Shown: positions 33,068-53,224 of the stretch, in pieces
How positions within the stretch are numbered: position 1 is the stretch's first letter
How the letters are laid out: every line of letters begins with the position of its first letter
Assembly: GCA_027484825.1 (NCBI GenBank)
Contig: JAIXSE010000036.1
Location: forward strand, 1 to 64,000
DNA: 64,000 nt
Source: Rubrivivax sp.
Lineage (GTDB): Bacteria > Pseudomonadota > Gammaproteobacteria > Burkholderiales > Burkholderiaceae_C
Reading direction: 5' to 3'
Position numbers and translations under genes: made by a program
Notes under the pieces: model-generated
Databases searched by the model: none
Told to the model about the DNA's origin: nothing
What the model saw: the letters and a program-made list of their open reading frames with translations, nothing else

Positions 33068-33084
33068 GGTTAAATACGGTCAAA
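33068..33084 (+). promoter_or_regulatory. GGTTAAA direct-repeat box 1
   Basis: GGTTAAATACGGTCAAA: two GGT(T/C)AAA half-sites with a 10-bp period, between the divergent S33 and S9 peptidase genes. The same arrangement is found at 38011, 40626, 48035 and 53209, near genes for winged-helix regulators or hydrolases. Candidate operator. Confidence 0.5.
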
Positions 33085-33172
33085 CGATGGACTGTGCGTT
33101 TCATGATCCAGCGCTGCGCCCTACAGTCCCTCCCATGGTGTGACGGCCGTGGAGCCGATGGGAGTGAACGGC

Positions 33173-35338
33173 ATGAGAGGCTGTTGGATGCGTCATGGAA
33201 CGAGGCTGCTGGACATGGTCTTGAAGCAGGGCATGGGCCTTTGCCTTTGCCTTTGCCTTTGCCTGTGCATGGGCTCGAGCCTGAGCCTGGACGCGCAGGC
33301 GGCGCGACCGGAAGAGGCGGCCGTGCTGACACCTCAGGCGCTGGCCGAACTGGATCGTGTGGGCGCGCCGGCGCTCTCCCCGGACGGCATGAGGATCGCC
33401 TACACGGTCACAGGCGAACGTCTGGCGGGATCCGGCCCCCGGGTGAGGCTGATGGTGGGGCCCAGTGGAGAGTGGAGGTCGGCGACCGTGGTGCTGGAGG
33501 CGGATCGAGCCGTCGATCAGGTGAGCTGGTCCGAGGACGGTACGCGCCTCTATTACCTGACGTCCGCCCCAGGCACACCGCAGCTGTGGAGCGTTGGAGC
33601 CAGCGGCGGCCCACCCCGTCAGGTGACCGACCTCCCGCTGAGTGTCATGGCGTACCGCCTGGCCGACCATGACCGCCTGCTGATCACGGCTCATGATGCC
33701 TGGCCGGACTGCGAGGATCTGGCGTGCAGCAAGACCCGGCAGGACCAGGAAGCGGCGCTACGCCGGGGCCCCAATCGCGCGGACAGCGGGCTGATGTATC
33801 GGGACGGACAGGCCGTGCGTTACATGGACAGTTATGTGGACGGCCGTTTTACCGCGCTGTTCCAGTCACGGTGGACGCAGGAGGCGCCGGTGACCGAGGC
33901 GACCGCCGTGATGCGCGGTTATCGCTACGACGTCATGGAGCGCAACTTCACCCCGCAGATCGATTTCAGCGTGTCCGGTGATGGGCAGCAGGTGGTGGTC
34001 GCGCTCAGGCCCTCGGGGTCCAACCAGACGGACGAGCTTCCAAAGCGCCTGTTCGACATCAGTCTCCCGGACGGCCGGACGCAGATGCTGGATACGCCGG
34101 CGGGGCGCTCGGCCTACCGGCCACGCCTGTCGCCGGATGGGCGTCATTTGGCCTATCTGCAGGCCCAGGGAAGCGAGCACACCGCGCCACGGGTCACCGT
34201 CTGGGTGCGTGACCGGCAGACCCAGCGGGAGGTGCAGTTGGCGCCGCAGCTGGATGTCCTGGTGACGGACATCGGATGGTCGTCGGAGGGGCGCGTGGTG
34301 TATGCCATCGGCGCGCAGGGGGTGAAGGTCCGGTTGTTCGAGTTGTCGCTCCAGGCGCCCGACACCGCCGTGCCCGTGCCCAGCCGCAGTGCGGTGCTGC
34401 AGTGGAGCAGCCGGGGCGGGCGGCTCGCGGTTCTGGACAGTGATCTGCAGCATCCCCCGGCGTTGTCGGTGCGCGAGGCTGCCGTGGCTTCCCCCTCCGG
34501 GGCGGGCCCTGTCGCTCAGGAAGAGGCGGTCCCGGTGCCGGTGCCGGGTTATCCGCTCGGAGAGGCCTCCGTCTTCCGATTCCGGGGATGGCATCAGGAC
34601 CCGGTGGAGGGCCTGGTGCTGCGTCCCGCCGGATTCCAGCCGGGGGAGCGATACCCGGTGGTGTTCCTGCTGCATGGCGGACCGAACGGTGTCTTCTCCG
34701 ACAGCTGGAGTGCCGGTGTGCTCGCGCCCCAACTGTTTGCCGCCCGGGGGTATGCGGTGGTGATGATCAACCCCCATGGGTCGGCCGGTTATGGCACGGC
34801 CTTCGGCCGATCGGTGCTGCGCCATTGGGCCGACCGCCCGATGGAGGACTTGAAGGCCGGTTGGGCGCATGCGCTGGCACGATTCCCCTTCCTCGACGGG
34901 AACCGGGCCTGCGCGGTGGGGGGCTCGTATGGCGGCTACCTGACGCTGATGTTGGCGGGGCAATGGTCCAAGCCCTGGAAGTGCCTCGTCAACGGACAGG
35001 GCATCTTCGACACCCGCAGCTTCTATTACGCCAATGACATCACGACCTACGACCGCCTCTCGCTGGCGGAGCGGCCTTGGGACCCTGAGATCGAGCACCA
35101 GAATCCGGCGCGGCATGTGGCCAGGTGGACGACGCCGCTCTTCATCATCGCGGGCGGACGGGATTACCGTGTGCCAGTGGATCAGACGCTGGGGGCCTAC
35201 AAGGCGGCATCGCTGCGGCAGGTGCCCACCCAGGTGCTGATCTTCCCGGACGAGGGGCATGGGCAGTTCAGCCTGCCCAACCGGATCCGCACCATGGACG
35301 AAGTGCTGCGCTGGCTCGACCGGTGGACGGCGCCCTGA
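33173..35338 (+). CDS. Exported S9-family prolyl oligopeptidase
   Basis: About 721 residues. A signal peptide containing five Leu-Cys dipeptides is followed by a propeller-like domain (ALSPDGMRIAYTVTG, RLSPDGRHLAYLQ) and an alpha/beta hydrolase domain. The catalytic serine is in the box VGGSYGGYLTLMLAG, with the Asp near GGRDYRVPVDQ and His in FPDEGHGQFS. S9 enzymes cut short peptides; the exported form would act in the periplasm or outside. I chose the ATG at 33173, preceded by GGAG, rather than the GTG at 33140. An ORF-long domain order matches DPP-IV/acylaminoacyl-peptidase types. The alternating LC run comes from a TTTGCC repeat in the DNA. Confidence 0.82.
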   Translation: MRGCWMRHGTRLLDMVLKQGMGLCLCLCLCLCMGSSLSLDAQAARPEEAAVLTPQALAELDRVGAPALSPDGMRIAYTVTGERLAGSGPRVRLMVGPSGEWRSATVVLEADRAVDQVSWSEDGTRLYYLTSAPGTPQLWSVGASGGPPRQVTDLPLSVMAYRLADHDRLLITAHDAWPDCEDLACSKTRQDQEAALRRGPNRADSGLMYRDGQAVRYMDSYVDGRFTALFQSRWTQEAPVTEATAVMRGYRYDVMERNFTPQIDFSVSGDGQQVVVALRPSGSNQTDELPKRLFDISLPDGRTQMLDTPAGRSAYRPRLSPDGRHLAYLQAQGSEHTAPRVTVWVRDRQTQREVQLAPQLDVLVTDIGWSSEGRVVYAIGAQGVKVRLFELSLQAPDTAVPVPSRSAVLQWSSRGGRLAVLDSDLQHPPALSVREAAVASPSGAGPVAQEEAVPVPVPGYPLGEASVFRFRGWHQDPVEGLVLRPAGFQPGERYPVVFLLHGGPNGVFSDSWSAGVLAPQLFAARGYAVVMINPHGSAGYGTAFGRSVLRHWADRPMEDLKAGWAHALARFPFLDGNRACAVGGSYGGYLTLMLAGQWSKPWKCLVNGQGIFDTRSFYYANDITTYDRLSLAERPWDPEIEHQNPARHVARWTTPLFIIAGGRDYRVPVDQTLGAYKAASLRQVPTQVLIFPDEGHGQFSLPNRIRTMDEVLRWLDRWTAP
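33240..33263 (+). repeat. Hexanucleotide (TTTGCC)4 repeat inside a signal peptide
   Basis: Four perfect TTTGCC units followed by a degenerate fifth. They encode Leu-Cys repeats in the hydrophobic core of the S9 peptidase signal peptide. Unit length is a multiple of three, so slippage changes signal length without a frameshift. Confidence 0.85.
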
Positions 35339-35429
35339 CGCCCCAGAACCCTGAGCAGCCCCGAGCAGCCCCAGCGCCCCGAATCCCTGCAAGCGCCCGC
35401 GTGCGCCGCAGGGCCGGTGGATCTCCCGC

Positions 35430-36953
35430 TCAAGCGACCGCGTGCGGCGGCTCTACGGCCCGGGTCCGCCCCAGCGTCAGGCGCATTCGGCAATAGGCCC
35501 GCGTGGTCTCCAGCAACCGGTAGGTCGGCACGCCGCTGGAGAGATCAAGCACCAGCCAGGACTTGCAGGCCAGTTCACGCAGGAGGTCCGGCAGCGCGTC
35601 CTCCTGCAGCGGCATCAGTCGAGCGGCCGCCTGCACATCGAAGGCGCCGTCCATCACGGAGACCGCCAGAAGCAACCGGACCTCATGCGCGGACAAATGC
35701 CGCCATCCCCACGCCAGTGCGGCATCCAGGTCACGGTGGCGGTCCGGCGCGCCTCGTCGGCCGCCCAGCAGATGGACACCGTCCTCCAGCTGCCGCAGTA
35801 GATTGGCAAGGCCTTGCACGGACATCCTGGCCGCGGCCAGTTCGATCGCCAGTGGCAGCCCGTCGAGCCGCCGGCACAGCTCGGCCGCCGCGCGCGCCTG
35901 TGCATCGCAAAGCACAAAGTCGCCGGAGTGGGCGATGGCCCGGTCCACCAGGAGACGGACAGCGCAGTAGCACAGGGCCTCCGCCGCCGTGAGGGCGCCG
36001 AAGCCTGGCGGCACCAGCAAGCCCTGAACGCGCCGCACGCATTCGCCCGAGACCCTCAGCGGCTCACGGCTGGTGATCAGCAGTCGCAGACCCGGGCATC
36101 GCCTCAGCATCTCGTCGATGCAGGCGGCAGCCGGATCGAGACAGGCCTCGCAGGTGTCCAGCACCAGCAGCAGATCCTTGCCTTGCAGGTGACGGCACAA
36201 CGCCGCCAGTGCCAGGGGCCCCTCGACGATGAGTCCCAGCTCCGCCGCAATCACGGCAGGCAGCACGGCGGGGTCGTGTACTGCGGCAAGGTCCACCAGG
36301 CTGGCGCCGTCCGGAAACCGGGAGGACAGGCCGGTCGCCACCAAGGTGGCCAGCGCAGTCTTGCCCACCCCCGCCGGTCCGACCAAGGAGACGAGCCGGT
36401 ACCGCCTCACATCGGCCATCAGCGTTTCGACTTGCAGTTCCCGCCCCACCAGAGGGGTCGGCAGCACCGGCAGCACCGGCAGTCGGCGCGTGGGCGCCGC
36501 TGGGCCGCTGCCGGTGCCTGGCAGGTCGGGAGGCCGGACCTGGAGAACGCTGCCGACAAACCGGTAACCGCGTCCGCGGGTCGTGGCGATGAACGCTTCA
36601 CCCGAGGCACCGGCGCCGAGCGCCCGGCGCAGGGCCGCCATGTTCACCTTGATGTTGGAGTCTTCCACCACGGACTGGGGCCAGACCTGTCTCAGGATCT
36701 CCCGCTTCCCGACGAGCTCTCCCGCCCTCCGAACCAGCAAAGTCAGGATGTCCAGCGCACGGTTCCCCAGCCGCACGGGCTGGTCATCTTCCAGCAGCAG
36801 TTGTCGGTCGGGAATGAGGAGGAAACGATCAAAGGCATAGGCGGTTCGCGCTGGCGGGGACGTGCCCGGGAGGGTGACGGCATGCCGGTCCGACGGGGGG
36901 ACTGTGGGGACGGGATGGTGCGCGGGACCGTGATGAATGGGAGCTTCCTCCAT
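35430..36953 (-). CDS. Winged-helix/STAND ATPase transcriptional regulator (1)
   Basis: About 507 residues. An OmpR/CadC-type winged helix occupies roughly residues 35-125 (YAFDRFLLIPDRQLLLEDD, ILTLLVRRAGELVGKREIL, RGRGYRFVG). An NB-ARC-like ATPase follows with Walker A LVGPAGVGKTALA, Walker B LLLVLDTCE and the GLPLAIELAAARM box. It matches the family of predicted ATPase/winged-helix regulators. No TPR array follows, unlike the longest paralogue in the window. It is convergent with the S9 peptidase gene and downstream of a hydrolase gene on the same strand, and a 26-bp palindrome lies just upstream. Ligand unknown. Confidence 0.75.
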   Translation of the reverse strand: MEEAPIHHGPAHHPVPTVPPSDRHAVTLPGTSPPARTAYAFDRFLLIPDRQLLLEDDQPVRLGNRALDILTLLVRRAGELVGKREILRQVWPQSVVEDSNIKVNMAALRRALGAGASGEAFIATTRGRGYRFVGSVLQVRPPDLPGTGSGPAAPTRRLPVLPVLPTPLVGRELQVETLMADVRRYRLVSLVGPAGVGKTALATLVATGLSSRFPDGASLVDLAAVHDPAVLPAVIAAELGLIVEGPLALAALCRHLQGKDLLLVLDTCEACLDPAAACIDEMLRRCPGLRLLITSREPLRVSGECVRRVQGLLVPPGFGALTAAEALCYCAVRLLVDRAIAHSGDFVLCDAQARAAAELCRRLDGLPLAIELAAARMSVQGLANLLRQLEDGVHLLGGRRGAPDRHRDLDAALAWGWRHLSAHEVRLLLAVSVMDGAFDVQAAARLMPLQEDALPDLLRELACKSWLVLDLSSGVPTYRLLETTRAYCRMRLTLGRTRAVEPPHAVA

Positions 36954-37006
36954 GCGCCCACTGTAAGCATCGGAGGCAGTGCCCACCAGCCACGGCTCAG
37001 GGAGCG

Positions 37007-37032
37007 CTGGCTCACTCGATCGAGTGAGCCAG
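37007..37032. promoter_or_regulatory. Perfect 26-bp palindrome between hydrolase and regulator genes
   Basis: Arms CTGGCTCACTCGA and TCGAGTGAGCCAG meet without a spacer. It begins 25 bases after the stop of the minus-strand hydrolase gene and lies about 55-80 bases before the start of the regulator at 36953. No T-run follows on either strand. It could be a terminator hairpin without a U-tract, or a dimeric operator for the regulator. Confidence 0.6.
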
Positions 37033-37056
37033 TCCAGGGGACGGACAAAGGCCGGG

Positions 37057-37749
37057 TCAGTTCCGCGCCAGCGACTGCGCGGCCGCCGCAATGAAATCGG
37101 CCACTTCCGCCGGGTGTGACAGCATGGGCACGTGGCTGGTGGGCAGGGTCAGGATCTGCGCCTGCATGGCCTGTGCAAACTTGCGCTGCAGCGGCGGCAG
37201 GATCATCCGGTCCTCTGTGGCCAGGACATACCAGGTCGGTCGATGCTTCCAGGCCGCCGGCCCGCTCTTGGCCGAGAACACGCTGCCATGCGTGGGCGTC
37301 TGCACCGCATGCATGACACGCGTCTCCGAGGCCGGCAGGTCCTGCGCGAAGTTCTCCGCCACGCCTTGAGCCGTCATGCTCAGGAAGCCACTGGCATCCG
37401 GGCGCAGCTCCGCGAGCCCCGGCGGCGGCGGAAACTCATGCCCCAGGTCGCCCACCGCCTCGCCCTCATCCGGCGCAAAGGCCGCCACGAAGACCAGCCC
37501 CGCCACAGTCTTGTCGTGGCCGGCATTGCTGATGACGACCCCGCCGTAGGAATGACCGACCAGCAGGACCGGCCCGTTGATCAGCGCCAGGGCTCGGGTG
37601 GTGGCCGCCACGTCGTCGGCCAGCGAAGTCAGCGGCGGTTGCACCGCCGTGACGGCATGGCCCTTGTCCTGCAACAGGGGAATGACCTTGGACCAGCTGG
37701 AGCCGTCCGCCCAGGCGCCGTGAACCAGAACAATATGCGGGTAAGACAT
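37057..37749 (-). CDS. Alpha/beta hydrolase (esterase-like)
   Basis: About 230 residues, cytoplasmic. It opens MSYPHIVLVHGAWADGSSWS, the oxyanion-loop region, and has the nucleophile elbow LLVGHSYGGVVISNAG. The acid is in VLATEDRMILPP and the His in LPTSHVPMLSHP. The family includes esterases and signal-lactone or plant-hormone hydrolases, but substrate is not predictable. The ATG at 37749 begins the conserved region. It is upstream of, and on the same strand as, a winged-helix/ATPase regulator, from which a palindrome separates it. Confidence 0.8.
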   Translation of the reverse strand: MSYPHIVLVHGAWADGSSWSKVIPLLQDKGHAVTAVQPPLTSLADDVAATTRALALINGPVLLVGHSYGGVVISNAGHDKTVAGLVFVAAFAPDEGEAVGDLGHEFPPPPGLAELRPDASGFLSMTAQGVAENFAQDLPASETRVMHAVQTPTHGSVFSAKSGPAAWKHRPTWYVLATEDRMILPPLQRKFAQAMQAQILTLPTSHVPMLSHPAEVADFIAAAAQSLARN

Positions 37750-38100
37750 GGGAACCTTTCTTCCGTGAGGACTCTCGTGGAGTGCCACCGCATCGGTGCG
37801 GGATGCGTCGATGCAGTCTGGACTTCCAATGTCAGTACAGAGGCGTCCCAAAGAACCCACCAAACGAGAGGCCGTCCTGTGGCCACGGCTGGACAGGCGA
37901 AGACTCCCATTGGAGAGGCGACGTTGGGCCGCCGGGCCATTGCCGGATCTGCCATTGCAACCACCTCACGGCGGCAGCCCTCCTCACCGCTGCAGCCTGC
38001 TTCACCGCGCTTTACCAGACTGAACCCCCGGCTCTGCGCAATGCAGATACCTTCATGAGGGTGCACCGCCTGCCGCGGTGGTCTGACGAAGGAGACGCCA
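37750..38100. other. 351-bp divergent intergenic region
   Basis: It lies between two divergent alpha/beta hydrolase genes. It holds one GGTTAAA-type box (38011-38026) and a good ribosome-binding site (GAAGGAGA about 38088) for the plus-strand gene. I see no other structure. Confidence 0.5.
38011..38026 (-). promoter_or_regulatory. GGTTAAA-type direct-repeat box 2
   Basis: On the minus strand GGTTCAGTCTGGTAAA, two GGT-AA half-sites with a 10-bp period. It sits 75 bases before the hydrolase start at 38101. It closely matches box 5 (GGTTAAATCTGGTAAG), including the central TCTGG. Confidence 0.45.
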
Positions 38101-39195
38101 ATGACTGACCTGATGCCCCCGATGCCCCTGATGCCCGGGATCCCCCTGGCGGGCACGCCCCGCACTCCACGTAGTCCCCATACTCCCCGCCTGCAGCCCC
38201 TGTTCCAATGGGGCCGGCGTACCTTCGGCCTGGCGCTGGCGGTGCTCCTGATGCAGGCTGCTGCAGCCGAGGCGCAGAGGCCCGCCGCCGCTGTTGCCGC
38301 TGTTGCCGCAGGCCCGGTCCGGCACGACTTCATCGAGGTGGACGGTCATCGCATCTTCTATCGCGAGGCCGGCCCCGCCGATGCGCCGGCCCTGCTGCTG
38401 CTGCATGGCTTTCCCACGTCGTCGCACCTGTTCAGTGGCCTGATTCCCCGCCTGGCCGGTCGTTACCGCGTCGTGGCCCCGGATCTGCCCGGGTTCGGGC
38501 TCACCGAGACACCGGCCGCCACGAGCTTCGGCTATACCTTCGACGAACTGACCCGGGTGGTGGACCGGTTCGCGCAGGCGAAGTCGCTCCAGCGTTACGC
38601 GCTGTATGTGTTTGACATTGGCGCCCCCATCGGCTGGCGACTGGCCGTGGCGCATCCGGAGCGGATCACCGCCATCGTGTCCCAGAACGGCAATGGCTAC
38701 GAGGAAGGACTCAGCCCGGCCTGGGCGCCGATCCGCAAGTTCTGGGCGGACCCCAGCCCGGAGACGCGTGATCCCTTGCGTGGACTTTTCAAGCGGGAGA
38801 CCACCCGGTGGCAGTACCTGGAAGGCGTCAGGGAGCCGACCCATGTGCCCCCTGAACACTACCTGCTCGACCAGATGTTTCTGGACCGCCCGGGCCAGGA
38901 GGACATCCAGCTGGCCATCCTGCTGGACTATCGCTCCAACCTGAAGCAGTACGACGCCCTGCATGCCTACTTCCGGCGGTACCAGCCGCCGCTGCTGGCG
39001 GTCTGGGGGGCTGCGGATCCGTTCTTCCTGCCTGCTGGCGCCAAGGCGTTTCAGCGGGACCTGCCCAAGGCCGAGGTCCATCTGATCGACGGCGCCGGCC
39101 ACTTCGCGCTCGTGTCCCACGAGGACGAAGTGGCGGCGCGGGTGCTGTCTTTCCTGAACCGGACCTTGAAGCCGGCTGGACAGCGCAAACCTTGA
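38101..39195 (+). CDS. Exported alpha/beta hydrolase with Asp nucleophile (haloalkane dehalogenase/epoxide hydrolase-like)
   Basis: 364 residues. An N-terminal Pro-rich stretch and a signal segment (FGLALAVLLMQAAAAEA) precede the hydrolase domain. The oxyanion loop is [13 protein letters not shown], and the nucleophile position in YVFDIGAPIGWRLA is an aspartate, as in dehalogenases and epoxide hydrolases, rather than Ser. The acid and base are in AVWGAADPFFLP and IDGAGHFALVSHE. It is a close relative of the gene at 41468-42454 (shared [38 protein letters not shown]). A strong Shine-Dalgarno (AAGGAGA) precedes the ATG. Confidence 0.8.
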   Translation: MTDLMPPMPLMPGIPLAGTPRTPRSPHTPRLQPLFQWGRRTFGLALAVLLMQAAAAEAQRPAAAVAAVAAGPVRHDFIEVDGHRIFYREAGPADAPALLLLHGFPTSSHLFSGLIPRLAGRYRVVAPDLPGFGLTETPAATSFGYTFDELTRVVDRFAQAKSLQRYALYVFDIGAPIGWRLAVAHPERITAIVSQNGNGYEEGLSPAWAPIRKFWADPSPETRDPLRGLFKRETTRWQYLEGVREPTHVPPEHYLLDQMFLDRPGQEDIQLAILLDYRSNLKQYDALHAYFRRYQPPLLAVWGAADPFFLPAGAKAFQRDLPKAEVHLIDGAGHFALVSHEDEVAARVLSFLNRTLKPAGQRKP

Positions 39196-39208
39196 TGCGG
39201 CGTCGGGC

Positions 39209-39838: not shown

Positions 39839-39877
39839 GGCGGTCTCCGATGCTGAAGGCGTGGAATGGTGGGAGGG

Positions 39878-40519
39878 TCAATACATCGGCGCGTTTTCGA
39901 AACGCGACGACTTGGCGACATCCACAATGCCGAGCTCTGTGGCGATGTGGGCCGCCTCGGTCCGTGAGGACGCCGCCAGCTTGCCCAGGATGGCCTTCAC
40001 ATGGCTCTTGACCGTGCCCGGTGCAATGCCCAGATTGCTGGCAATCGCCTTGTTGCACTGACCGCGTGCCAGCAGTTGAAGGACGGTGTCTTCCCGCGAG
40101 GTCAGCGGTTCGCGCGAAAAATTGGCGGCCACCCGCTGCGCCATCTCGACGCAGACATAGTTGCGCCCCGTTCCGACAGCCTCGATGGCATGCACCAGTT
40201 CCAGCGGTGTGCATGAACATAAGAGCATGCCGGACAAGCCGCGACGCAGCGCCGACAGCAGCGGTTGTTCCCGCGCATGGGACGCCACCACCAGCACCGC
40301 CAGCGGGCAGTCCCGCACGACCGGATCGGCCCGGAGCCATCGCATGGCGCCGGACCAATCGGTCACCAGCACCTGCGCTGGCAGGAAGCCATGGGCGGCA
40401 TCGGCCTCCACCAGCTCGAGGCTGGGCTCATGCTCCAACGAGGCGCGAATGCCCATGGCCAGCAGCGGCTCCTCATGCGAGATGGCAACCTTCAATTGCC
40501 GTTGACGGACTTTGACCAT
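39878..40519 (-). CDS. LuxR-type response regulator with degenerate receiver
   Basis: 213 residues. The C-terminus is a clear LuxR-type helix-turn-helix (LTSREDTVLQLLARGQCNKA, LGIAPGTVKSHVKAILGKL). The N-terminal part has the size of a receiver (KVAISHEEPLLAMGIRASLE, AVLVVASHAREQPLLSALRR) but the acidic pair is HEE and the phosphoacceptor region is VLVTDWSGAMRW, so phosphorylation is uncertain. It probably senses something else or is constitutively active. It may control the downstream flavin protein or the divergent isochorismatase. Confidence 0.75.
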   Translation of the reverse strand: MVKVRQRQLKVAISHEEPLLAMGIRASLEHEPSLELVEADAAHGFLPAQVLVTDWSGAMRWLRADPVVRDCPLAVLVVASHAREQPLLSALRRGLSGMLLCSCTPLELVHAIEAVGTGRNYVCVEMAQRVAANFSREPLTSREDTVLQLLARGQCNKAIASNLGIAPGTVKSHVKAILGKLAASSRTEAAHIATELGIVDVAKSSRFENAPMY

Positions 40520-40625
40520 GACTCACTCCCGGTCGCGCCCCTGCACGACCCGGTGGCCATGATCGAGCGGACCGCGACCTCGCGTCGAGTTAGTTCCGGT
40601 AAATAAACATAAGCGGCGACCCCGC

Positions 40626-40642
40626 GGTTAAACGTGGTGAAA
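40626..40642 (+). promoter_or_regulatory. GGTTAAA direct-repeat box 3
   Basis: GGTTAAACGTGGTGAAA, 10-bp period, 118 bases before the isochorismatase start. The region between the divergent genes is otherwise without obvious structure. Confidence 0.5.
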
Positions 40643-40760
40643 AGCCGGTGAGGCCTGCGGCCTGGAGCGTTGCAAAGGCGGGTCCGACTTCCATACTGAA
40701 TGCGTCACCCCTCACACGGCCGTCACTCCCGGTGGCCGTCATTTCCTCCAGGAGCGTTCC

Positions 40761-41423: not shown

Positions 41424-41467
41424 ACCTGTCCGGGGCCGTCTCTTTTCCAACCACTGAAAGCAATCCC

Positions 41468-43940: not shown

Positions 43941-46521
43941 GGGTCAGCAAGGCAGCGGCCGCCGCCAGATCCGGGGTGCAGACCCCTTCGGTGAAGGTGG
44001 CCAGGATGCGCTGCAACTGACGACGGGCTGCCGCCTCGCCGTCGCCGCCCAGGCACAGCCGCATCTGCGTCGTGCAGGCCTTGAGCGCCCAGCTTCGTGC
44101 CTCGGTGTCCTCCGCGATCTGGAGGGCGCACACCAACAGCTGCTGCGCGTCGTCAGACCGCCCCTGCTTCGCGGCCGTGGTGGCCCGGATGCGGAGCAGT
44201 TCCGGCACGCACCAGCGCTCGTTCTGGGCCTCGGCGACTGCCGTGGCCTCGTCGAGGATCGCCTCGGCCTCCGCCAGGCGCGAGCGGTCGGCCAGCAGTT
44301 CCGCCTGCACGGCCAGGTAGTAGGGCAGTCGCGCGGTGTGGCAGGTGGTGCGGAAGGCGACGATGGCGCGGCGGATGTCCTCGAACCCGTGCTCACTGCC
44401 GGGGGCACGGCGCAGCGCCAGGACACCGCGGCAGAAGTCCGCAATCGGCCGCCACATGAGGATGCCGTGTTGTTCCACCAGGTCCTCCAGCCACGCGGTG
44501 TGCTGGCTGCAGGCCTCGTCACGGCCGGTCCAGAGGTAGATGAGGCAGTTCCAGGCCAGGCCGATGCTCAGCGACAGCTCGTGCGAGGCAAGGCGCCCAT
44601 CACGCAGCACCTCGGAAGCGGTCTGCAAGGCCGCGGCCGGTGCGCCCGTCAGCCACTGCGCGTGGCATAAGACGATCAGCCGGTTGACGCTGTTGCTGTA
44701 CTGGAAGCGGGCCAGTTGCGCCCGATGACTGGGCTGCGGCGCATCGGCGATCAGCCGCTGCATGCGCTCCAGGGCGCTGCTCGGTCGGCCGACCAAGATC
44801 TCGGCGCAGGCCAGATGGGTGTCGGCTTCCCCGAGCACCGAGGGGTCCTCGGTCCGGGCAATGCGCATGAAGGTCTCGAGGGTGCGCATGCCGGCTTCAT
44901 GTTGGCCGCTGAAGATCTTCAGCGTGCTGTCCAGCCGCAGGCAGCGCAGCAGCAGATCGGCGTCTCCTGACTGTTGCGACAGCTCGGTGGCTCGCTGGAC
45001 GGCGGCACGCGCGGGCGGCGTGACGCCGCGGGTGTAGAGGGTGGCACCGGCCAGCGCCAGTTGGAGCTGGATCTCCACCGTCGAGGATGCCGGGCCCGTA
45101 CCGCCCGGGCTGTCAGGACGACCAAGCCCATCAAGCCCATCGAGCCTATCCAGTTCACTGAGCCGCTCGATGGCCCGCGCCAGATGACCGCGGCTCTCAT
45201 CGGTCAGGGAAAAGTGATTCCACAACCACAGGCCTGCTGCCGTGAGCCGCACCAGCAGCGGGTGATGGGACGGGTCAGCGTCCGCCCAGGCCAGGGCGTC
45301 ACGCAGGTCGTCGAGGTAACTTTGGTAGGGCACCGCCCAGTCCTGGGACGGGGGCTGCTCCGCGAGCCTGGCGGCATGCTCCAGGGTCTGGCACACATGG
45401 CTGGCATGTCGCTTGCGAAGCGCCGCATCCTCCCCGAGTGCCATGCGCTGGTCCCGGCAGTAGAGCCGGGTGGTGACCAGCAGCCGGTAGACCTTGTCTC
45501 CGCCGGGCGCGGCGTCCACCGACAGCAGAGACTTGGACACCAGCTCGTCCAGCACCCATGCCAGGGGGGCCGCCGGCAGGTCGGCCATCTCGATTGCACC
45601 GGTCAGCCGGAAGCTGCCGGCAAAGACGGACAGGGCCCGGAGCACCCGCGCCTGCCGCTCAGGCAGCAGCCGGTAGCTCCAGTCCAGTGTGGCGGTCAGG
45701 GTGCGGTGTCGCTCATGGCCGGCCCGCCTGCCTGCGAGCAAACGCAGGCGGCCCTTCAACTGATCGGACAGGTCCTTCACGCCAAACACGTCCACCCGCA
45801 TCGCCGCCAGCTCGATGGCCAGGGCGATGCCGTCCAGGTTCCGGCAGATGTCGGCCACCGCCGGCGCATCGTCGTCGTCCAGCACGAAGGGGCTGCGTCG
45901 GTCGGAGGCGCGGTCCACAAACAGCTCGATGGCCGGGAAACGGAGCGCCGCATCAGCCGTCAGTCCGGCCGATACGGGCGGGGAGGCCAACCCCTGGAGC
46001 TGGATCTCCTGCTCGCCGTCCACACGCAGGGCGCAGCGGCTGGTCGTGATGATGTGCAGGTCCGGGGTCTGGAGCAGCAATTGCTCGACGCAGCAGGCCA
46101 CGGCGCGGATCAGTTGCTCGCAGTTGTCCAGCACCAGCAGCACCCGAGATCGGGACAGGAAGCGCACCAAAGCGGGCAAGGCTTGCGCCGAGTGAACCGC
46201 CAGGCTTGCCGCGTTGGCGATGGCATGGGCAATGAGGGCGGGGTTGCGCAGAGGGGCGAGGTCGACGAACCAGACGCCGTCGATGTAGTGCTCGCGCGCG
46301 CGTTCCGCGACCGCCAGCGCGACCGTGGTCTTGCCCATGCCGCCGGCCCCCACGATCGAGACCAGCCTCGTCTGCCGGACCTGCTGGAGCAATTGGCTCA
46401 CCAGATCGTCGCGTCCGACCATGCGCACCGTGCTGGCCGGCAGGTTGTGCCGGGAGGTGGGCTGCGCCGGAAACCGGTAGACGTTGTCCACTTCGGCGTC
46501 CTGCGGCGTGGCGGCCGTCAT
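43930..46521 (-). CDS. STAND ATPase with TPR-like C-terminus, no winged helix
   Basis: About 863 residues. It begins MTAATPQDAEVDNVYRFPA and goes straight into the ATPase: Walker A IVGAGGMGKTTVALAVAE, Walker [14 protein letters not shown], and the GIALAIELAAMRVDVFG box. The last ~400 residues are helical with a TPR-like look (ATELSQQSGDADLLLRCLRL, LAEAEAILDEATAVAEAQ). A DNA-binding domain is missing, in contrast to its neighbours. It overlaps the upstream winged-helix gene by 4 bases and the downstream one by 11, so all three are translated together. It may be the sensing subunit of a split regulator. The frame is open further upstream but the ATG at 46521 is in the ATGA overlap. Confidence 0.72.
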   Translation of the reverse strand: MTAATPQDAEVDNVYRFPAQPTSRHNLPASTVRMVGRDDLVSQLLQQVRQTRLVSIVGAGGMGKTTVALAVAERAREHYIDGVWFVDLAPLRNPALIAHAIANAASLAVHSAQALPALVRFLSRSRVLLVLDNCEQLIRAVACCVEQLLLQTPDLHIITTSRCALRVDGEQEIQLQGLASPPVSAGLTADAALRFPAIELFVDRASDRRSPFVLDDDDAPAVADICRNLDGIALAIELAAMRVDVFGVKDLSDQLKGRLRLLAGRRAGHERHRTLTATLDWSYRLLPERQARVLRALSVFAGSFRLTGAIEMADLPAAPLAWVLDELVSKSLLSVDAAPGGDKVYRLLVTTRLYCRDQRMALGEDAALRKRHASHVCQTLEHAARLAEQPPSQDWAVPYQSYLDDLRDALAWADADPSHHPLLVRLTAAGLWLWNHFSLTDESRGHLARAIERLSELDRLDGLDGLGRPDSPGGTGPASSTVEIQLQLALAGATLYTRGVTPPARAAVQRATELSQQSGDADLLLRCLRLDSTLKIFSGQHEAGMRTLETFMRIARTEDPSVLGEADTHLACAEILVGRPSSALERMQRLIADAPQPSHRAQLARFQYSNSVNRLIVLCHAQWLTGAPAAALQTASEVLRDGRLASHELSLSIGLAWNCLIYLWTGRDEACSQHTAWLEDLVEQHGILMWRPIADFCRGVLALRRAPGSEHGFEDIRRAIVAFRTTCHTARLPYYLAVQAELLADRSRLAEAEAILDEATAVAEAQNERWCVPELLRIRATTAAKQGRSDDAQQLLVCALQIAEDTEARSWALKACTTQMRLCLGGDGEAAARRQLQRILATFTEGVCTPDLAAAAALLTHGR

Positions 46522-47972
46522 GTCACGTCCCAATGCGGCGCAGGCGTCAGTTCCTCGGTGCCCAGGAGCGGGTTGAGGAGGAAGGCACGGGTGATGTGAA
46601 GCAGATCGTAGCGGATGTCGCCCTGCTGGAACTCGGCCTGCAGCAGGGACTTGGCGACCAGTTGCGCGACCCGCTCGGCGACCGCACCGGGATCGGCGGC
46701 GTCCTGCTCGACCAGCGCGCAAGCGGTCGCCAAGGTGAAGGGACCGTCCAGGCGGGCCAGGCGACGCAGCAAGTCCTGTTCTTCGCCAGACAGCAGTGCA
46801 TAACTCGCGGCGACGTTGGCGAAGAGCGTGCGGTGGCGCTCGGGCCCCTGCACATCCCCATCCAGCATGTGCAGACGTCGCCGGATGTGGTCCAGCATGC
46901 CGGGCAGGCCCAGCGCCGGAACCCGCCGCGCCACCCGCTCGATGGCCAGGGCGTGACCGTCCAGTTGCTGGCAGAGCGCCATCACCAGGCTGGCATTGCG
47001 GTCATCCAGCTCAAATCCATCGCCCGCTTCGTTGGCCCGCGCCACAAACAGCTGGACCGCCGGGCACTGCAGCGCTTGTGCAGCACTGAGCGTCGGTGGC
47101 CCGTGCCCCAGCGCCAATCCCGGGAGGCGACGCACGACCTCCCCGCGAATGGCCAGCGGCTCCCGGCTGGTGGCCATCAGCCTCAGCGGCCGGACGCTGC
47201 GCAGCAACTGGTCGGCGCAGGTGGCCACGGCCTCGATCAGCGGCTCGCAATTGTCCAGAATCACCAGGGTGTCCCGGTCCGGCCCGGCCGGTGCAACCGG
47301 CGGACGCACGCCCGACGCGTCAATGCCGCCCCGCAGCGCCTCGTGCAGGACGTGATGCACCCGTGCCGGGTCGTCCACTGCGGCCAGGTCCACAAAGCGC
47401 ACGCCCCCGGGAAAGGCTCCGGCGACCGCCCCCGCCACCGCCACCGACAGGGCCACGGTGGTCTTGCCAATGCCGCCGGGTCCGACGATGGACACCAGCC
47501 GGGACCGCTGCAGGTCCAGCAGCACCGCGCGGATCGTGTCGTCCCGCCCATAGACCTGACCCGGCAGCGGCGGCAGGTGACCCAGGGGCACCGCGCCGGA
47601 GGCCGGCAAGGACGCCCGCTGCGCGGGGCGGCGACAAATGGTCTGCACCTCCCCGATGAAGCGGTAGCCGGTGCCGGCCACGGTCTCGATATACCGCGGG
47701 GGATGGGCCGCATCCCCCAGCAGCTTGCGAATGGCGAAGATGTTGACCTTGAGATTGCCTTCCTCCACCACCAGCCGTGGCCAGGCAATGGCCACCAGCT
47801 CCGCCTTGGGGATGACCTGCCCAGGACGCTCCACCAGGGCCGTCAGCAGGTCCAGGGCACGGCCGCCCATGCGGATCACCTCGTCGCCCTTGAGCAACTG
47901 CTGCTGTTCGGGCAACAGGACAAAGGGGCCGAAGGCAAAGGCATGCGCAGCCTGGGCAGTCAGGGCCGTCAA
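46518..47972 (-). CDS. Winged-helix/STAND ATPase transcriptional regulator (3)
   Basis: About 484 residues. Winged helix FAFGPFVLLPEQQQLLKGD to GTGYRFIGEV (about residues 14-105), then Walker A IVGPGGIGKTTVALSVAVAG, Walker B TLVILDNCEPLIEAVA and the HALAIERVARRVPAL box. It lacks a TPR part, which the next gene supplies, starting in an ATGA overlap. No ATG exists near the N-terminus. I chose the TTG at 47972, preceded by GGAG at a normal distance; a TTG at 48035 is possible but overlaps the GGTTAAA box and has no ribosome site. Confidence 0.75.
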   Translation of the reverse strand: MTALTAQAAHAFAFGPFVLLPEQQQLLKGDEVIRMGGRALDLLTALVERPGQVIPKAELVAIAWPRLVVEEGNLKVNIFAIRKLLGDAAHPPRYIETVAGTGYRFIGEVQTICRRPAQRASLPASGAVPLGHLPPLPGQVYGRDDTIRAVLLDLQRSRLVSIVGPGGIGKTTVALSVAVAGAVAGAFPGGVRFVDLAAVDDPARVHHVLHEALRGGIDASGVRPPVAPAGPDRDTLVILDNCEPLIEAVATCADQLLRSVRPLRLMATSREPLAIRGEVVRRLPGLALGHGPPTLSAAQALQCPAVQLFVARANEAGDGFELDDRNASLVMALCQQLDGHALAIERVARRVPALGLPGMLDHIRRRLHMLDGDVQGPERHRTLFANVAASYALLSGEEQDLLRRLARLDGPFTLATACALVEQDAADPGAVAERVAQLVAKSLLQAEFQQGDIRYDLLHITRAFLLNPLLGTEELTPAPHWDVT

Positions 47973-48034
47973 CTCACACTCCAGGGGCAAAGAAAGGGAT
48001 GCCCGAGGTATATCGCCTGCGCTGGCGTGCCTCA

Positions 48035-48050
48035 AGTTAAATGCGGTTAA
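48035..48050 (+). promoter_or_regulatory. GGTTAAA direct-repeat box 4
   Basis: AGTTAAATGCGGTTAA, 10-bp period. It lies 63 bases before the start of the regulator operon and just after the end of the TonB receptor gene. Probable autoregulatory site. Confidence 0.5.
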
Positions 48051-48080
48051 TCGTGCAACCTGGCAGGGTGCTGCCGCCCT

Positions 48081-50240
48081 TCAAAACTGCCACCGGGCAC
48101 TGACCACCCAGGTGCGGGGCGCGTTGTAGTAGGCCGTGTCAACGCCCAGTGGGGGGATGACATACGGCAGCAGGGCATAGGTCCTGTCCATCAGGTTGCG
48201 CACGTTCAGGGACACGCTCCAGGCGCCGCTGGCGGCGGTGTAGACCGCACCGGCGTCCACATAGGTCTCTGAGGGAATGGCCAGTGCGCGGGAGTTGGCC
48301 GGATCGGTGAACCGGTGGGTGGTCACCCTCACTCCAACATCCGTCACCAGCGTGGCGCCGTCCCCGCCGGCCCAGTGGTGCCGCAGACCGGTGGAGCCGC
48401 TCCAGCGCGGGGCATGTGGCAGCTCGTGGCCAACGTTGCTGGTCGCGGGGGCACCCGAGGGATTGGCAAAGTCGTCGAAGCGGGATCTCAACCATTCCAG
48501 CGACAGGGTCCAGTCCAGGCGCCGCGTCAGCTTGGCGGTCAGGTCCAGGTCGGCGCCATAGGTCTTGGCCCGTCCCGCATTGGCCAGCACCGCATCGGGC
48601 ACCAGCACCCCATTGATCACGAGGTTGGACAACGAGGCCAGGTAGTCCCGGTAGTCGTTGTAGAACAAGGCTATGTTGAGGGTGATGCGGCCGTCGGCAT
48701 GGCGGCCCTTGCTGCCCACCTCATAGGCCGTGACCTGCTCCGGCCGGGTGGCAAAGCGCGCCGAGGGCTCGGAAGCGGCGGCCCGGTTGAAGCCGCCGAA
48801 TTTCTCGCCACGGGCCACGCTGGCATAGAGCAGTTGATCGGGCGTGAGCGCGTGATCAACGCCCAGTCGGGGCAGCCATCCGGAGGACGAGGTGCTCAGT
48901 CCATCGGCCCGGTAGACCGTTGCCAGGCGCTGTCCGTTGGCGTCCGTCGTCCAGTTGGCATTCGAGCCGGTCTGCCGTGCGTGATAGAGGCGCAGGCCTG
49001 CAGTCAGCCCGGTGCTGCCAGACAGCGCCAGGCGCGCCTGCCCGTAGAGGCCGACATCCACGGTCTTCAGCCGCGTGAGCGCTTGCGCATAGGAGGGGGC
49101 CGGCGCCGCGAGCGGGTACGAGCGCGTGAGGCGATCAAAGTCGAACACATCGGTGACCAGCATCACACCCGTGGTCCAGCTCAGTCGGTCGGCGCGGCCC
49201 TGAGCCTGCAGCTCCTGCGAGAAGGTGTTCTGCCCGTTGGTCTGGCGCACGCCATAACGCTGGACTGGGAGACCGCCAAAGTCGGCGACCGCGGGGTCGT
49301 CGCGATAGTGCCGGTAGCCGGTGATGGAGCGCAGCACCCAGTCCGGCGTGAGCGAATGCGTCAGGTGAAGGGCCAGCCCGCCAGCGAGCCGCCGGAACTC
49401 GCCGTCCGGTCCTGCGGTGAAGGACACCCGCGGGGCCGCTTCGGGGATGTGCCTTGGATAGTTGACGCTGTTGGTGTCCGACCGGTCCAGAAGCCCATCC
49501 AGTGACAAGATGGCTTCCGTGGCGGGCGAGACCTCCCAGCGCAGCCGGGTGCGGAACTGGGTGACGTCCAGCTTGTTGATGCGTTCCCGACGGGTGGCGT
49601 TGTAGCCATAGCCCTCGTGGGTCCGGCGCGAGAACGCGAAGCTGGCGGACAGCGGGCTCTCGCCGAGTGCGCCCTGGATCAGCCCGCGGAATTCGCGGGC
49701 GCCCTGGCTGCCGACACCGGCAGAGACCCAGGCGGAAAACGGTCCACCCGGCGTCGCGGAGATGTATTTGACCGCGCCGCCGCTGGAGTTCTGGCCGTAG
49801 AGCGTGCCCTGTGGCCCTCTCAGCACTTCCACCCGGACCAGATCGGGCAGGTCCCACAGCGCGGTGGCATAGCCCCGCACCAGCGGCACATCGTCCACAT
49901 AAAGGCCCACGGCCTGGCTGGAGGCCGGTTGCGACACGCCGACCCCGCGGATGCCGACCGCCTGCGGCGTGTTGCTGAAGCCGCTGGGGACGGTGACGCC
50001 GGCAATCAGTCCGGCAAGGTCACTCAGTTGCGTGATGCCCTTGAGCTGAAGGTCCTGGGTGCGCAGCACCCCCAGCGACACCGGACTGCGGCGGCTCAGG
50101 GTTTCGGTGCGCTCGGCCGTGACGACGATCTCGGGCAGGGACAGCGGGCTTTCCTCGGTCGGGGCCTGGGCCTGGGCATGCGCCTGGATGAAGGTCATGG
50201 CCGAGCTGCCCACCAGCAGAGTGACAAGATGTCGACTCAT
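48081..50240 (-). CDS. TonB-dependent outer-membrane receptor
   Basis: 719 residues. A signal peptide (MSRHLVTLLVGSSAMTFIQA) precedes a TonB-box-like region and the plug (LPEIVVTAERTETLSRRSPV, then VGIRGVGVSQPASSQAVG and VEVLRGPQGTLYGQNSSGG). The barrel ends with VVSARWQF, the usual aromatic C-terminus. It resembles iron-complex or vitamin-type receptors of the Plug/TonB_dep_Rec class; substrate unknown. Its start codon overlaps the stop of the winged-helix/ATPase/TPR regulator gene by four bases, an unusual direct coupling of a receptor to a STAND regulator. Confidence 0.85.
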   Translation of the reverse strand: MSRHLVTLLVGSSAMTFIQAHAQAQAPTEESPLSLPEIVVTAERTETLSRRSPVSLGVLRTQDLQLKGITQLSDLAGLIAGVTVPSGFSNTPQAVGIRGVGVSQPASSQAVGLYVDDVPLVRGYATALWDLPDLVRVEVLRGPQGTLYGQNSSGGAVKYISATPGGPFSAWVSAGVGSQGAREFRGLIQGALGESPLSASFAFSRRTHEGYGYNATRRERINKLDVTQFRTRLRWEVSPATEAILSLDGLLDRSDTNSVNYPRHIPEAAPRVSFTAGPDGEFRRLAGGLALHLTHSLTPDWVLRSITGYRHYRDDPAVADFGGLPVQRYGVRQTNGQNTFSQELQAQGRADRLSWTTGVMLVTDVFDFDRLTRSYPLAAPAPSYAQALTRLKTVDVGLYGQARLALSGSTGLTAGLRLYHARQTGSNANWTTDANGQRLATVYRADGLSTSSSGWLPRLGVDHALTPDQLLYASVARGEKFGGFNRAAASEPSARFATRPEQVTAYEVGSKGRHADGRITLNIALFYNDYRDYLASLSNLVINGVLVPDAVLANAGRAKTYGADLDLTAKLTRRLDWTLSLEWLRSRFDDFANPSGAPATSNVGHELPHAPRWSGSTGLRHHWAGGDGATLVTDVGVRVTTHRFTDPANSRALAIPSETYVDAGAVYTAASGAWSVSLNVRNLMDRTYALLPYVIPPLGVDTAYYNAPRTWVVSARWQF

Positions 50241-53113
50241 TCTGTGCAGCTCCGGCTCCGTTCCAGCGACGCCCGCAGACGGGTCGCCGCCATCATGTCC
50301 GGTGTGGCGGCGCCCTCGACACAGCGCTCGCAGGTCGACCGCAGCAGGCTCGCCGCGGCCGCAGGGTCACCCCGTTCGGCCAGCAGCTGTGCAGCGTCGG
50401 TGGCGGCCCTCAGCGCCCAGGCCAGCGTGCCATACCGCTGCGCCTTCCGCAGCGCCTGGTCCAGCAGCGAAGCGGCTGCCTCACGCTGCCCCTGCGCCAG
50501 CGCCACGGCCGCCTGCACCCTGAGCACCTCCGCCAGGCACCAGCCTTCCTCCTGGGCCAGGGCGCCATCGGCAGCCGCCTGGATGGTGGCTTCCGCTTCC
50601 TCCAGTCGTCCGCTCTGGCGCAGGGCGTCAGCCAGGACGCTCTGGTAATAAGGCAGCCGCACCAGGTGATTGGTGGCCTGGAAGTCATCGATGGCCTGCG
50701 CCAATCCCAGCACCACAGCTTCCGACGCACCCTGCGTGGAGAGCGCGAGCGCCGCGCCGTAGAAGGCGGCCACGGGACGTCGGGTGACGATGCCGTGGCG
50801 GCTGTAATGCGCCTCCAGCTCGCGGACATTGGCCGCGCACTCCTCATAAAGGCCGGTCCAGTACAGCACCGGGCAGGTGATGGACAGGGCGTTGTTCACC
50901 GTCAGGTGGTGACCGCTGGCCCGGCCGGCCTGCAGGCAGTCCCGTGCCGTGCGCAGCGCCGTGTCCGGCAGGCCGACCAGCCACTGGGCCTGGCACAGGA
51001 TGCCGCCGGCCAGCGCGTAGGGGTCCAGCACGTAACGCAGGCTGGATGCACTGGCCTGGCGGAAGTCCCGCTGCTGCACCGATTCAAAGCGGCGGATCGC
51101 GCTGTCGAGTTCCCCCAGCATCAGCTCGCCCACGCCGTGGTGGATGTCGCTGGCCACCAGGATGTCCGGGTCGGTGCGGGCGGCGATCGCGGCGAACTGG
51201 TCCAGCGAGCGCTTGCCGTCCCGCAGTCGGCCGGAGAACATCTGGTGGGCGCTGATGGACATCAGGCAGCGCAGCTGGCAGTCCGCGTCGTCCCGCCGCT
51301 GTGCGATGCGCAGCGCCCGGTGCATGGCGTCTTCGGCCTGCGCCTGCTGGCCCTGTGTGTACATCGAGGAGGCGCCCAGCCCCAGGCTCAGCAGCATGTC
51401 CTCCTGGGAGCCTACCCATCCGGCCGCCTCCAGCAGGCCGATCGCGTCGGCGAAGTGGCCCCGGCTTTCGCTGGTCAGGGAAAAGTGCTCCCACAAGGCC
51501 ATGCCGGCCACCGTGAGCCGGACCTGCAGGCGTGGCTCTGGCCGACCCGCGCGCACCCAGGCCAGGGCATTGCGAAGGTCGTCCAGCAGATGACCATAAC
51601 GGGCGGCCCACTGCGGCGCGGGCATGGCGGCGCGCTCCCGGCGACCTTGTTCCATGCGCTGGCAGATGCGCTCGGCATGCCGTCGGCGGATCACCTGCGC
51701 TTCCTCGGGGGCGGCTTGCAGCAGGTCCTGGCCGTAGAGGCGGGTGCTCTCCAGCAGGCGGTAGGCCATGCCGGCACCGGGATGGCCGCTGTCGATATGC
51801 AGCACCACGAGGGACTTGGCCACCAACTGCGCAAGGGCCGCCGGTGCATCCTGCGGGCCGCCGATCTCGTCGCAGCCGCGCACGGCCATGGCGTCGCGAA
51901 GGTCGAATGGGCCGGCGAACACCGAGACAGCCCGCAACAGGGCGGCTTCATCGGCACTCAGCAGTTCATAACTCCAGTCCAGCGTGGCCAGCAGCGTGCG
52001 TTGCCGGGTGCTCGAGGACCGCAGGCCCTTGAGCACCCGGAAGCGGTCGTCCAACTGCTCCAGCAGACCTTGCACGCCGAAAGCGTCCACCCGCGTGGCC
52101 GCAATCTCGATGGCCAGGGCCAAGCCGTCCAGTCGCCGGCAGATGGTGGCCACCAGCGGGGCCTGCGCATCGGACAGGCGAAAAGTCTCCAGCTTTTCGG
52201 TGGCACGTTCGACAAAGAGCTGCACCGCGGAAAACGTCAGGGCCTGCGCGGCCGTCGGGAGTTCCTGCTCCGACGGTGCGGACAAGGCCTGCAGGCGCCG
52301 CACACGCTCCCCCTCGACCAGCAGCGGCTCGCGGCTCGTGGCCAGGATCTTGACGCCCGGTGCTGCGCTCAGGATCGCCGTGACGCAGGCGGCCACGGAC
52401 GCCAGCACATGCTCGCAGTTGTCGAGCACCAGAAGGGCGGTGCGGTGCCGCAAGTACTCGCACAGAGTGGCCTGCACTTCGGTGCCCGAGTGGGTCAGGC
52501 CCGTGGCGGCGGCTATGGCATGCGCGGTGAGGCTCTGGTCGCGGGACCGGGACAGGTCCACCAGCCAGACGCCATCGCTGAACTGGCCCAGGCACTGCTC
52601 GGCCACCGCCAGGGCCACGGTGGTCTTGCCGATGCCCCCGGCGCCGGTCACGCAGATCAGCCGACTCGTCGCCATCTCCTGGGTCAATGAGGCAATCGTC
52701 TGCGTGCGGCCGAAGATGTTGGACACGGCGATCGGCAGATTGTGGGCCGGCGCGGCGCCCGTCTGAGGCAGCTCAGGCAGGGCTTCGGCGGCGCTTTCCT
52801 GCACCTGCGCCACAAAGCGGTAGCCACGGCCGGTCACTGTGGCGATGAAGCGGGGCTGGTCTGCGCCATCGTCCAGCGCACGCCGCAGCGCCATCATGTT
52901 GACCTTGAGATTGGCGTCGGCCACAACGGTATCAGGCCAGGCGCGCGCGACCAGATCGGATTTGGGCACCACCTGCCCAGGGCGCTCCAGAAGGACGGTC
53001 AGGAGGTCGATGGCCCGGCCCCCCAGACGCACAGGCGTGTCGTTGCGCAGCAGCAGTTGCCGCTCAGGGATGAGGCGGAAGGGGCCGAAGGCAAAGCTTC
53101 TGAAAAACGCCAT
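50237..53113 (-). CDS. Winged-helix/STAND ATPase/TPR regulator (4), full-length form
   Basis: About 958 residues and the fullest version in the window: winged helix (FAFGPFRLIPERQLLLRND to [10 protein letters not shown]), NB-ARC-like ATPase (Walker [19 protein letters not shown], Walker [34 protein letters not shown]), and a ~450-residue helical TPR-like sensor (GLGASSMYTQGQQAQAEDAM, LAQGQREAAASLLDQALRKA). This order corresponds to MalT/AfsR-like STAND regulators in which ligand binding to the repeats allows DNA-binding. The ATG at 53113 starts MAFFRSFAFGPF. The TonB receptor follows in an ATGA overlap, so it is probably the target. A GGTTAAA box lies 95-110 bases upstream. Confidence 0.8.
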   Translation of the reverse strand: MAFFRSFAFGPFRLIPERQLLLRNDTPVRLGGRAIDLLTVLLERPGQVVPKSDLVARAWPDTVVADANLKVNMMALRRALDDGADQPRFIATVTGRGYRFVAQVQESAAEALPELPQTGAAPAHNLPIAVSNIFGRTQTIASLTQEMATSRLICVTGAGGIGKTTVALAVAEQCLGQFSDGVWLVDLSRSRDQSLTAHAIAAATGLTHSGTEVQATLCEYLRHRTALLVLDNCEHVLASVAACVTAILSAAPGVKILATSREPLLVEGERVRRLQALSAPSEQELPTAAQALTFSAVQLFVERATEKLETFRLSDAQAPLVATICRRLDGLALAIEIAATRVDAFGVQGLLEQLDDRFRVLKGLRSSSTRQRTLLATLDWSYELLSADEAALLRAVSVFAGPFDLRDAMAVRGCDEIGGPQDAPAALAQLVAKSLVVLHIDSGHPGAGMAYRLLESTRLYGQDLLQAAPEEAQVIRRRHAERICQRMEQGRRERAAMPAPQWAARYGHLLDDLRNALAWVRAGRPEPRLQVRLTVAGMALWEHFSLTSESRGHFADAIGLLEAAGWVGSQEDMLLSLGLGASSMYTQGQQAQAEDAMHRALRIAQRRDDADCQLRCLMSISAHQMFSGRLRDGKRSLDQFAAIAARTDPDILVASDIHHGVGELMLGELDSAIRRFESVQQRDFRQASASSLRYVLDPYALAGGILCQAQWLVGLPDTALRTARDCLQAGRASGHHLTVNNALSITCPVLYWTGLYEECAANVRELEAHYSRHGIVTRRPVAAFYGAALALSTQGASEAVVLGLAQAIDDFQATNHLVRLPYYQSVLADALRQSGRLEEAEATIQAAADGALAQEEGWCLAEVLRVQAAVALAQGQREAAASLLDQALRKAQRYGTLAWALRAATDAAQLLAERGDPAAAASLLRSTCERCVEGAATPDMMAATRLRASLERSRSCTE

Positions 53114-53208
53114 GAGGCTCTCGGGACCGGTGAAGAGTGGGCGCGATGCCGAGTTGGCACCGCATGCGGCCGGAATGTAGGGGGGCCACGCCATGGCGTG
53201 AGGTGGGC

Positions 53209-53224
53209 CTTACCAGATTTAACC
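53209..53224 (-). promoter_or_regulatory. GGTTAAA direct-repeat box 5
   Basis: On the minus strand GGTTAAATCTGGTAAG, 10-bp period, between the lone winged-helix gene and the full-length regulator gene. Nearly the same as box 2. Confidence 0.5.

Follow-up and report, generated by a model that had tools for sequence, protein, structure and literature searches.

Tandem GGTNAA arrays in a Rubrivivax gene cluster: probable operators of the cluster's own winged-helix STAND regulators

Within 20 kb of a Rubrivivax sp. genome, five intergenic gaps carry similar repeated boxes, among genes for winged-helix proteins fused to STAND-type ATPase regions, which raises the question of whether these regulators are the proteins that read the boxes. 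Since STAND proteins are related to the immune receptors of plants and animals, a bacterial one whose DNA output is known would make a convenient reporter of STAND switching. In the literature searched, which covered few subscription journals, we found neither an earlier description of the motif nor a described operator for the winged-helix STAND regulators of proteobacteria. Based on the stretch of 64,000 nucleotides that was analysed (the window) and on comparisons with many other genomes, our answer is that this is a real, conserved and operator-like element, probably bound by the local winged-helix STAND regulators; the array sequence and its partners are new, and the principle is ordinary.

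Arrays and regulators of the cluster

A sequence-only reading of the window had described five boxes, each with two GGT-AA half-sites exactly 10 bp apart. This observation of repeated boxes is confirmed, with positions and spacing borne out in all five. As to the proposed form, GGTTAAA-N3-GGTNAA, the 10-bp direct repeat stands but the wording does not, since what repeats is better written as a 10-bp unit, GGTNAA-N4, which each box contains two or three times in head-to-tail order. The third units had been missed, as had the occurrence of the motif outside the cluster and the sister motif presented below.

A three-unit array (GGTGAG/GGTTAA/GGTCAA, 33058..33083, plus strand, with the third unit GGTGAG at 33058) lies upstream of a gene for an S9-family peptidase (33140..35338, plus; start ATG 33173 likely), and another (GGTTCA/GGTAAA/GGTGAA, 38001..38026, minus) lies 74 bp before the gene for an alpha/beta hydrolase (38101..39195, plus). 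Two-unit arrays are located upstream of an operon for an isochorismatase-family hydrolase and an alpha/beta hydrolase (40761..42454, plus), where GGTTAA/GGTGAA (40626..40641, plus) is accompanied by a GGTGAG 11 bp after the second unit; at 48035..48050 (AGTTAA/GGTTAA, plus), pointing away from the regulator gene 46518-47972 and abutting a TTGAGG; and at 53209..53224 (GGTTAA/GGTAAG, minus), 95 bp upstream of the regulator gene 50237-53113. The boxes point either way relative to the neighbouring gene, and the peptidase, the hydrolase and the isochorismatase operon are the presumed targets.

With up to two mismatches, GGTTAAANNNGGTNAA is matched 7 times in the window, against a mean of 0.52 and a maximum of 3 in 100 dinucleotide-preserving shuffles. 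The box at 38001..38026 has 2 mismatches to this pattern, yet it is a three-unit array (GGTTCA-N4-GGTAAA-N4-GGTGAA). That no such box occurs elsewhere in the window, as had been claimed, holds at up to one mismatch; it does not hold at two, where a weak possible site appears at the start of a luxR-type gene (40502..40517, minus). The genome scanned (5.66 Mb, 36 contigs, 95% complete) contains 4 matches with up to one mismatch, and these are four of the five named boxes, all in the 20-kb cluster. Because the reversed pattern gives 7 such matches, the genome-wide number of boxes is not raised; it is the clustering of 4/4 matches in 20 kb that is remarkable, and it shows that the distribution is not random. 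Under a strict unit rule (either two exact units or three units that match in 13 of 15 letters), 3/5 of the window boxes are counted, at period 10 only, with 0 at periods 7-9 and 11-15.

Five winged helices of the OmpR/CadC/ToxR type are encoded in the cluster, four of them fused to STAND-type ATPase regions and one alone, and the recognition helices of all five carry N-[LI]-K-V-N. Their genes, all on the minus strand, are 35430..37091 (helix EDSNIKVN; true start unsure), 42402..43940 (DEGNLKVN; identified by our own HMM only), 46518..47972 (EEGNLKVN; start TTG 47972 assumed, with the open frame reaching 48035), 50237..53113 (ADANLKVN; winged helix, NB-ARC and TPR) and 53254..53742 (VEGNIKVN; the winged helix alone). 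The Pfam scan took in four of the five (35430-37091, 46518-48035, 50237-53113 and 53254-53742), and all four match Trans_reg_C (PF00486; E from 7.5e-14 to 4e-16). The ATPase assignments vary in firmness: NB-ARC scores 29.4 bits in 50237-53113 (Pfam cut-off 23.5) and 23.1 bits, just below that cut-off, in 35430-37091, while 46518-48035 matches general AAA models only, with scores under their cut-offs. No receiver domain was found in the winged-helix proteins scanned against Pfam, and the three winged-helix ATPase proteins scanned (35430-37091, 46518-48035 and 50237-53113) had no match to the BTA domain at E up to 0.001. By sequence, the closest solved winged helices are those of CadC (E=7e-9) and ToxR.

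A further STAND-type ATPase protein, without a winged helix, is encoded at 43930..46722 (minus; an open frame whose likely start is further in), with NB-ARC and nSTAND1 scores of 25.2 and 31.0 against cut-offs of 23.5 and 27.1. In the region 43930-48035, the winged-helix ATPase gene is followed by an ATPase gene lacking the winged helix, with overlapping ends and in the same order as in locus L066, as if the pair were parts of one regulator that was split or duplicated. Relatives of a sensor kinase of the Reg_prop/Y_Y_Y type (28031-31855, minus) and of a neighbouring LuxR-like frame (31298-31948, plus) adjoin the corresponding regulator clusters in L065, L066 and L068. The G+C content is 0.575-0.650 over the first 28 kb of the window and 0.670-0.697 over the remainder, cluster included.

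Promoter context and distant sites

Conservation of the boxes at orthologous positions, on which the sequence-only reading had staked its claim, was found upstream of the hydrolase gene 38101, the isochorismatase operon and the regulator gene 46518. When these three promoters were compared across related genomes (with -10 and -35 elements assigned by eye), the most conserved blocks were the array and the presumed -10. In the hydrolase promoter, the distance from TTNACC-N4-TTNACC to ATACCTT is 45 bp in the window, in the orthologue of genome G005 and in a related hydrolase of G015 alike, with the DNA in between mostly diverged; the array at 38001..38026 retains both its position and its 45-bp spacing to GATACC in G005. 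Upstream of the isochorismatase operon, the array and ACTTCCATACT are retained in G005 and G009, and the distance from the first unit to CATACT is 66 bp in the window, 77 bp in G005 and 66 bp in G009, that is, equal or 11 bp longer. In the promoter of regulator 46518, the 16-mer is identical in G009, another species of the genus, where as in the window it adjoins a TTGAGG/TTGAGC (window/G009) that is followed after 17 bp by TATACC/TACACC; the spacing from array to presumed -10 is 38 bp in both. Most promoters examined have a poor -35, and the array overlaps the presumed -35 at some of them only.

Bare pattern counts were rejected as evidence, as they often show no excess over the reversed control. 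Among 60 relatives, the one-mismatch pattern is generally not above that control, and many of its matches have the sequence CGTTAAAGGGGGTGAA, which occurs several times in a genome (in G015 at a distance of exactly 5,750 bp) and probably stems from rRNA-type repeats; at two mismatches, 9 genomes gave 33 matches against 26 in the control, barely above it. When one mismatch was allowed, the three-unit pattern had 10 matches (control 1) in the 16 genomes of the genus, corresponding to 8 separate arrays. An N[LI]KV-type regulator is encoded within 10 kb of 6/8 of them, the exceptions being an array in G004 and one on contig C24 of the own genome, although the scan is not independent because 6/8 of the arrays also belong to the loci scanned below.

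The own genome has 9 exact two-unit matches (control 2): 3 in the cluster, 4 in called genes, one intergenic on contig C22 and one at C24:15068. The last belongs to a four-unit array, GGTGAATCGC GGTGAATCAC GGTGAGCCAT GGTGAATCAC (L125:7059-7104, equal to C24:15058-15103), which lies a long way from the cluster, between genes for a dienelactone hydrolase and DoxX, and comes close to both the GGTNAA unit and the sister unit; it is possibly a distant target.

Arrays and recognition-helix types

In 86 loci fetched for their regulator protein, arrays are present in 13/18 of those with an N[LI]KV helix and in 4/68 of the others (Fisher p=1.8e-8, an optimistic value, as are the other p-values of this test, since the loci are related). 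The count omits the window, the loci L067, L125, L127 and L209-L211 (chosen for a pattern) and L126; it includes L065, L066 and L068, which are protein matches whose boxes were already known when they were fetched. Within the own family and order, the figures are 6/6 N[LI]KV loci against 2/44 others, and in a named collection (L089-L124) they are 7/12 against 2/24 (p=0.0025). The 18 N[LI]KV loci contain 18 arrays at period 10, as compared with 0-2 at periods 7-9 and 11-15 (0 at period 11), 0 in the reversed sequence and a mean of 0.2 in shuffles. A search for tandem gapped hexamers that assumes no motif was dominated by codon periodicity when run on all DNA; redone on the noncoding DNA of the 18 loci, it places GGTNAA at period 10 first, with 10 loci (the next has 6).

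In the array-holding loci, which are 75-92% coding, 25/28 mapped arrays overlap no called gene (7 of the 28 rows come from pattern-picked loci and 3 from the window, and L101 and L211 hold the same array). On a tree of the winged helices, the array label requires 5 changes, against 20.6 in shuffles (0/500 as low), although many forks are weak, labels were assigned per locus and the tree takes in two loci picked for a pattern. In L089, L090, L091, L098 and L193, the genes next to the arrays frequently encode small enzymes of the kind that deals with stress or detoxification (DJ-1/PfpI, isochorismatase, ABM monooxygenase, GFA).

The pairing of helix and array holds as a tendency, which shows clearly in the own family and weakly in rhizobia. 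A later test with 8 Rhizobium-family loci and 20 Bradyrhizobium-family loci (these 20 for regulators near the top of 59 listed) found arrays in 2/8 N[LI]KV loci and in 2/20 others, which is not significant (p=0.55); L340, which belongs to the eight, coincides with the previously scanned L100. In L343, one of the two array-bearing loci among the others, a regulator whose helix reads NLKIQ has the array at its 5' end; in hindsight, this helix narrowly misses the N[LI]KV rule. Across 198 Bradyrhizobium-family genomes, the three-unit pattern has 35 matches against 17 for the reversed one, and 3/35 lie within 2 kb of a listed regulator (rough expectation 0.015): two flank a single Bradyrhizobium regulator that was already known, and the third, in G979, is 1.1 kb from a regulator with an NLRVQ helix, with no N[LI]KV winged helix in the 8.8 kb on the other side. 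It is on account of the non-significant rhizobial test and of this array that we speak of a tendency only. The helix code as an absolute rule was rejected on these two grounds, and also because 5/18 N[LI]KV loci have no array under the strict unit rule, while 4 other loci do; in Variovorax (L210), an array is found with no N[LI]KV regulator within 9 kb. In G979, an inverted copy (TTTTCACCGCACTTAACG) comes within 100 bp after the three-unit array (L336:379-460).

A second unit accompanies another type of helix. The pattern GCGTGAAT-N2, at a 10-bp period, is present in 5/8 loci with ETSLR[VA]H-like helices (matches to E[ETSD][TSA][SN]LR[VA]H) and in 2/78 others (p=3e-5), numbers that are flattering because part of these data had already served to find the unit. 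In the ETSLR[VA]H-like loci there are 11 arrays of GCGTGAAT at period 10, against 0-2 at periods 7-9 and 11-15, and the five such loci from other genera have 5 arrays, against 0 in the reversed sequence and 0.05 in shuffles. Three genomes (G005, G011 and G687) possess both types of regulator, and each type stands in loci with the unit that goes with it; L076 (G011) is an exception in that it holds one two-unit GGTNAA match as well. Hexamers of the sister unit occur in 5/14 loci in the motif-free search, no more than GC-rich hexamers in the reversed control; support for this unit comes from the 8-mer test. The same search, in noncoding DNA, gave nothing convincing for the NLQVQ and GVRVQ helix sets. 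As a genome-wide predictor, the sister unit was rejected: GCGTGAATNNGCGTGAAT with up to one mismatch has 28 matches in 27/299 genomes (control 5), of which three (two in G604, one in G687) are within 7 kb of regulators, and GCGTGAATNNGCGTGAAT alone is mostly background, because no matching winged helix is present in the flanks of the 20 examined among the other 25 matches.

It is tempting to generalize that winged-helix STAND regulators of proteobacteria read 10-bp head-to-tail arrays, and that the unit is determined by the recognition helix, with N[LI]KV[NH] reading GGTNAA and ETSLR[VA]H reading GCGTGAAT, in a large proteobacterial family of local switches. We regard this joint generalization as tentative, with somewhat less than even odds. 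If true, it would amount to a simple code between protein and DNA, by which the regulons of many orphan STAND regulators could be found.

Candidate operators, rival explanations and known systems

The reading that we favour, with a probability of roughly two in three for the whole of it, mechanism included, is that the winged-helix STAND regulators encoded in the cluster use the boxes as their operator arrays. One winged helix with N-[LI]-K-V-[NH] in its recognition helix would read each GGTNAA-N4 unit, and two or three protomers would bind in head-to-tail order along the same face of the DNA, each about a helical turn from the next. The arrays would act at or upstream of the -35 position, in promoters whose -35 is mostly poor, and for this reason the bound protomers would be expected to assist RNA polymerase in the manner of AfsR and ToxR. 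The ATPase part (and the TPRs, where present) may gate activation through ATP and some ligand. The predicted targets are the regulators themselves (two of the five boxes) and the neighbouring peptidase, hydrolase and isochorismatase genes. The interpretation put forward in the sequence-only reading is thereby supported overall: its link to winged-helix regulators is strengthened by the association with one type of recognition helix, and weakened by the rhizobial result. With a predicted operator, a second sequence variant and the matching helix types in hand, targets and mode of action become directly testable.

The same regulators could instead use the arrays for repression, as autoregulation or silencing of neighbours. 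Several arrays stand directly upstream of regulator genes (48035 and 53209 in the window; L069 9089, L091 6948 and L209 11738), and those near the -35 could block the polymerase; nevertheless, the lack of a good -35 in most promoters examined fits activator dependence, and AfsR and ToxR, the nearest proteins in architecture and fold, are described as able to activate (PMC10936776, PMC8517210), which makes repression unlikely. A little less likely still is that the arrays serve a different regulator travelling in the same clusters, for example the LuxR-type protein 39878-40519, whose orthologues adjoin arrays in L065, L066 and L068. Against it, the array stands beside the STAND regulator itself in the rhizobial loci L090 and L091 and in L209, and the association of arrays follows the type of winged helix. 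Moreover, LuxR sites are usually inverted repeats, and a 10-bp tandem direct repeat suits winged helices.

Chance, or promoter DNA copied along with duplicated regulator genes, is very improbable. The presence of several paralogous regulators in the cluster and the weak rhizobial test would speak for it, but the DNA flanking the five boxes appears unrelated from box to box, and the array and the -10 stand out in promoters that have otherwise diverged. A chance origin was rejected on the shuffle counts (7 against 0.52 expected in the window), the clustering of 4/4 genome sites and the 86-locus association.

The operator-array reading has close parallels in known systems. The arrays have the form expected of winged-helix sites, namely tandem direct repeats spaced by about a helical turn, here candidate sites with period 10. 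In AfsR, a large Streptomyces SARP, a winged helix, a nucleotide-binding STAND/NOD part and TPRs are joined in one protein, much as in 50237-53113; the afs box is reported to consist of two 11-bp direct repeats overlapping the -35, and the NOD/TPR parts to inhibit activation until ATP binds (PMC10936776). The mechanism proposed here is modelled on this ATP-relieved inhibition and on the 10-bp ToxR box, although our system differs from AfsR in its period (10, not 11), in having no BTA match and in belonging to a different phylum. Response regulators of the PhoB/OmpR/PhoP type share the winged-helix family and the tandem direct repeats (7-bp repeats with a 4-bp spacer are given for PhoP in PMC4832192), but their period is 11 bp, and the winged-helix proteins scanned here have no receiver domain.

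The winged helix of ToxR (Vibrio cholerae) is of the same kind as those of the cluster (E about 2e-8). It is fused to a membrane and periplasmic part, whereas here the fusion is to a STAND ATPase. The ToxR box, described as TNAAA-N5-TNAAA, is also a direct repeat with a 10-bp period (PMC8517210); the arrays differ from it in the conserved GG before the T and in having two to three units. The ToxR pattern is matched exactly at 33068 and 40626 and not in the other three boxes, and one exact match lies outside the cluster, at 20350 (minus).
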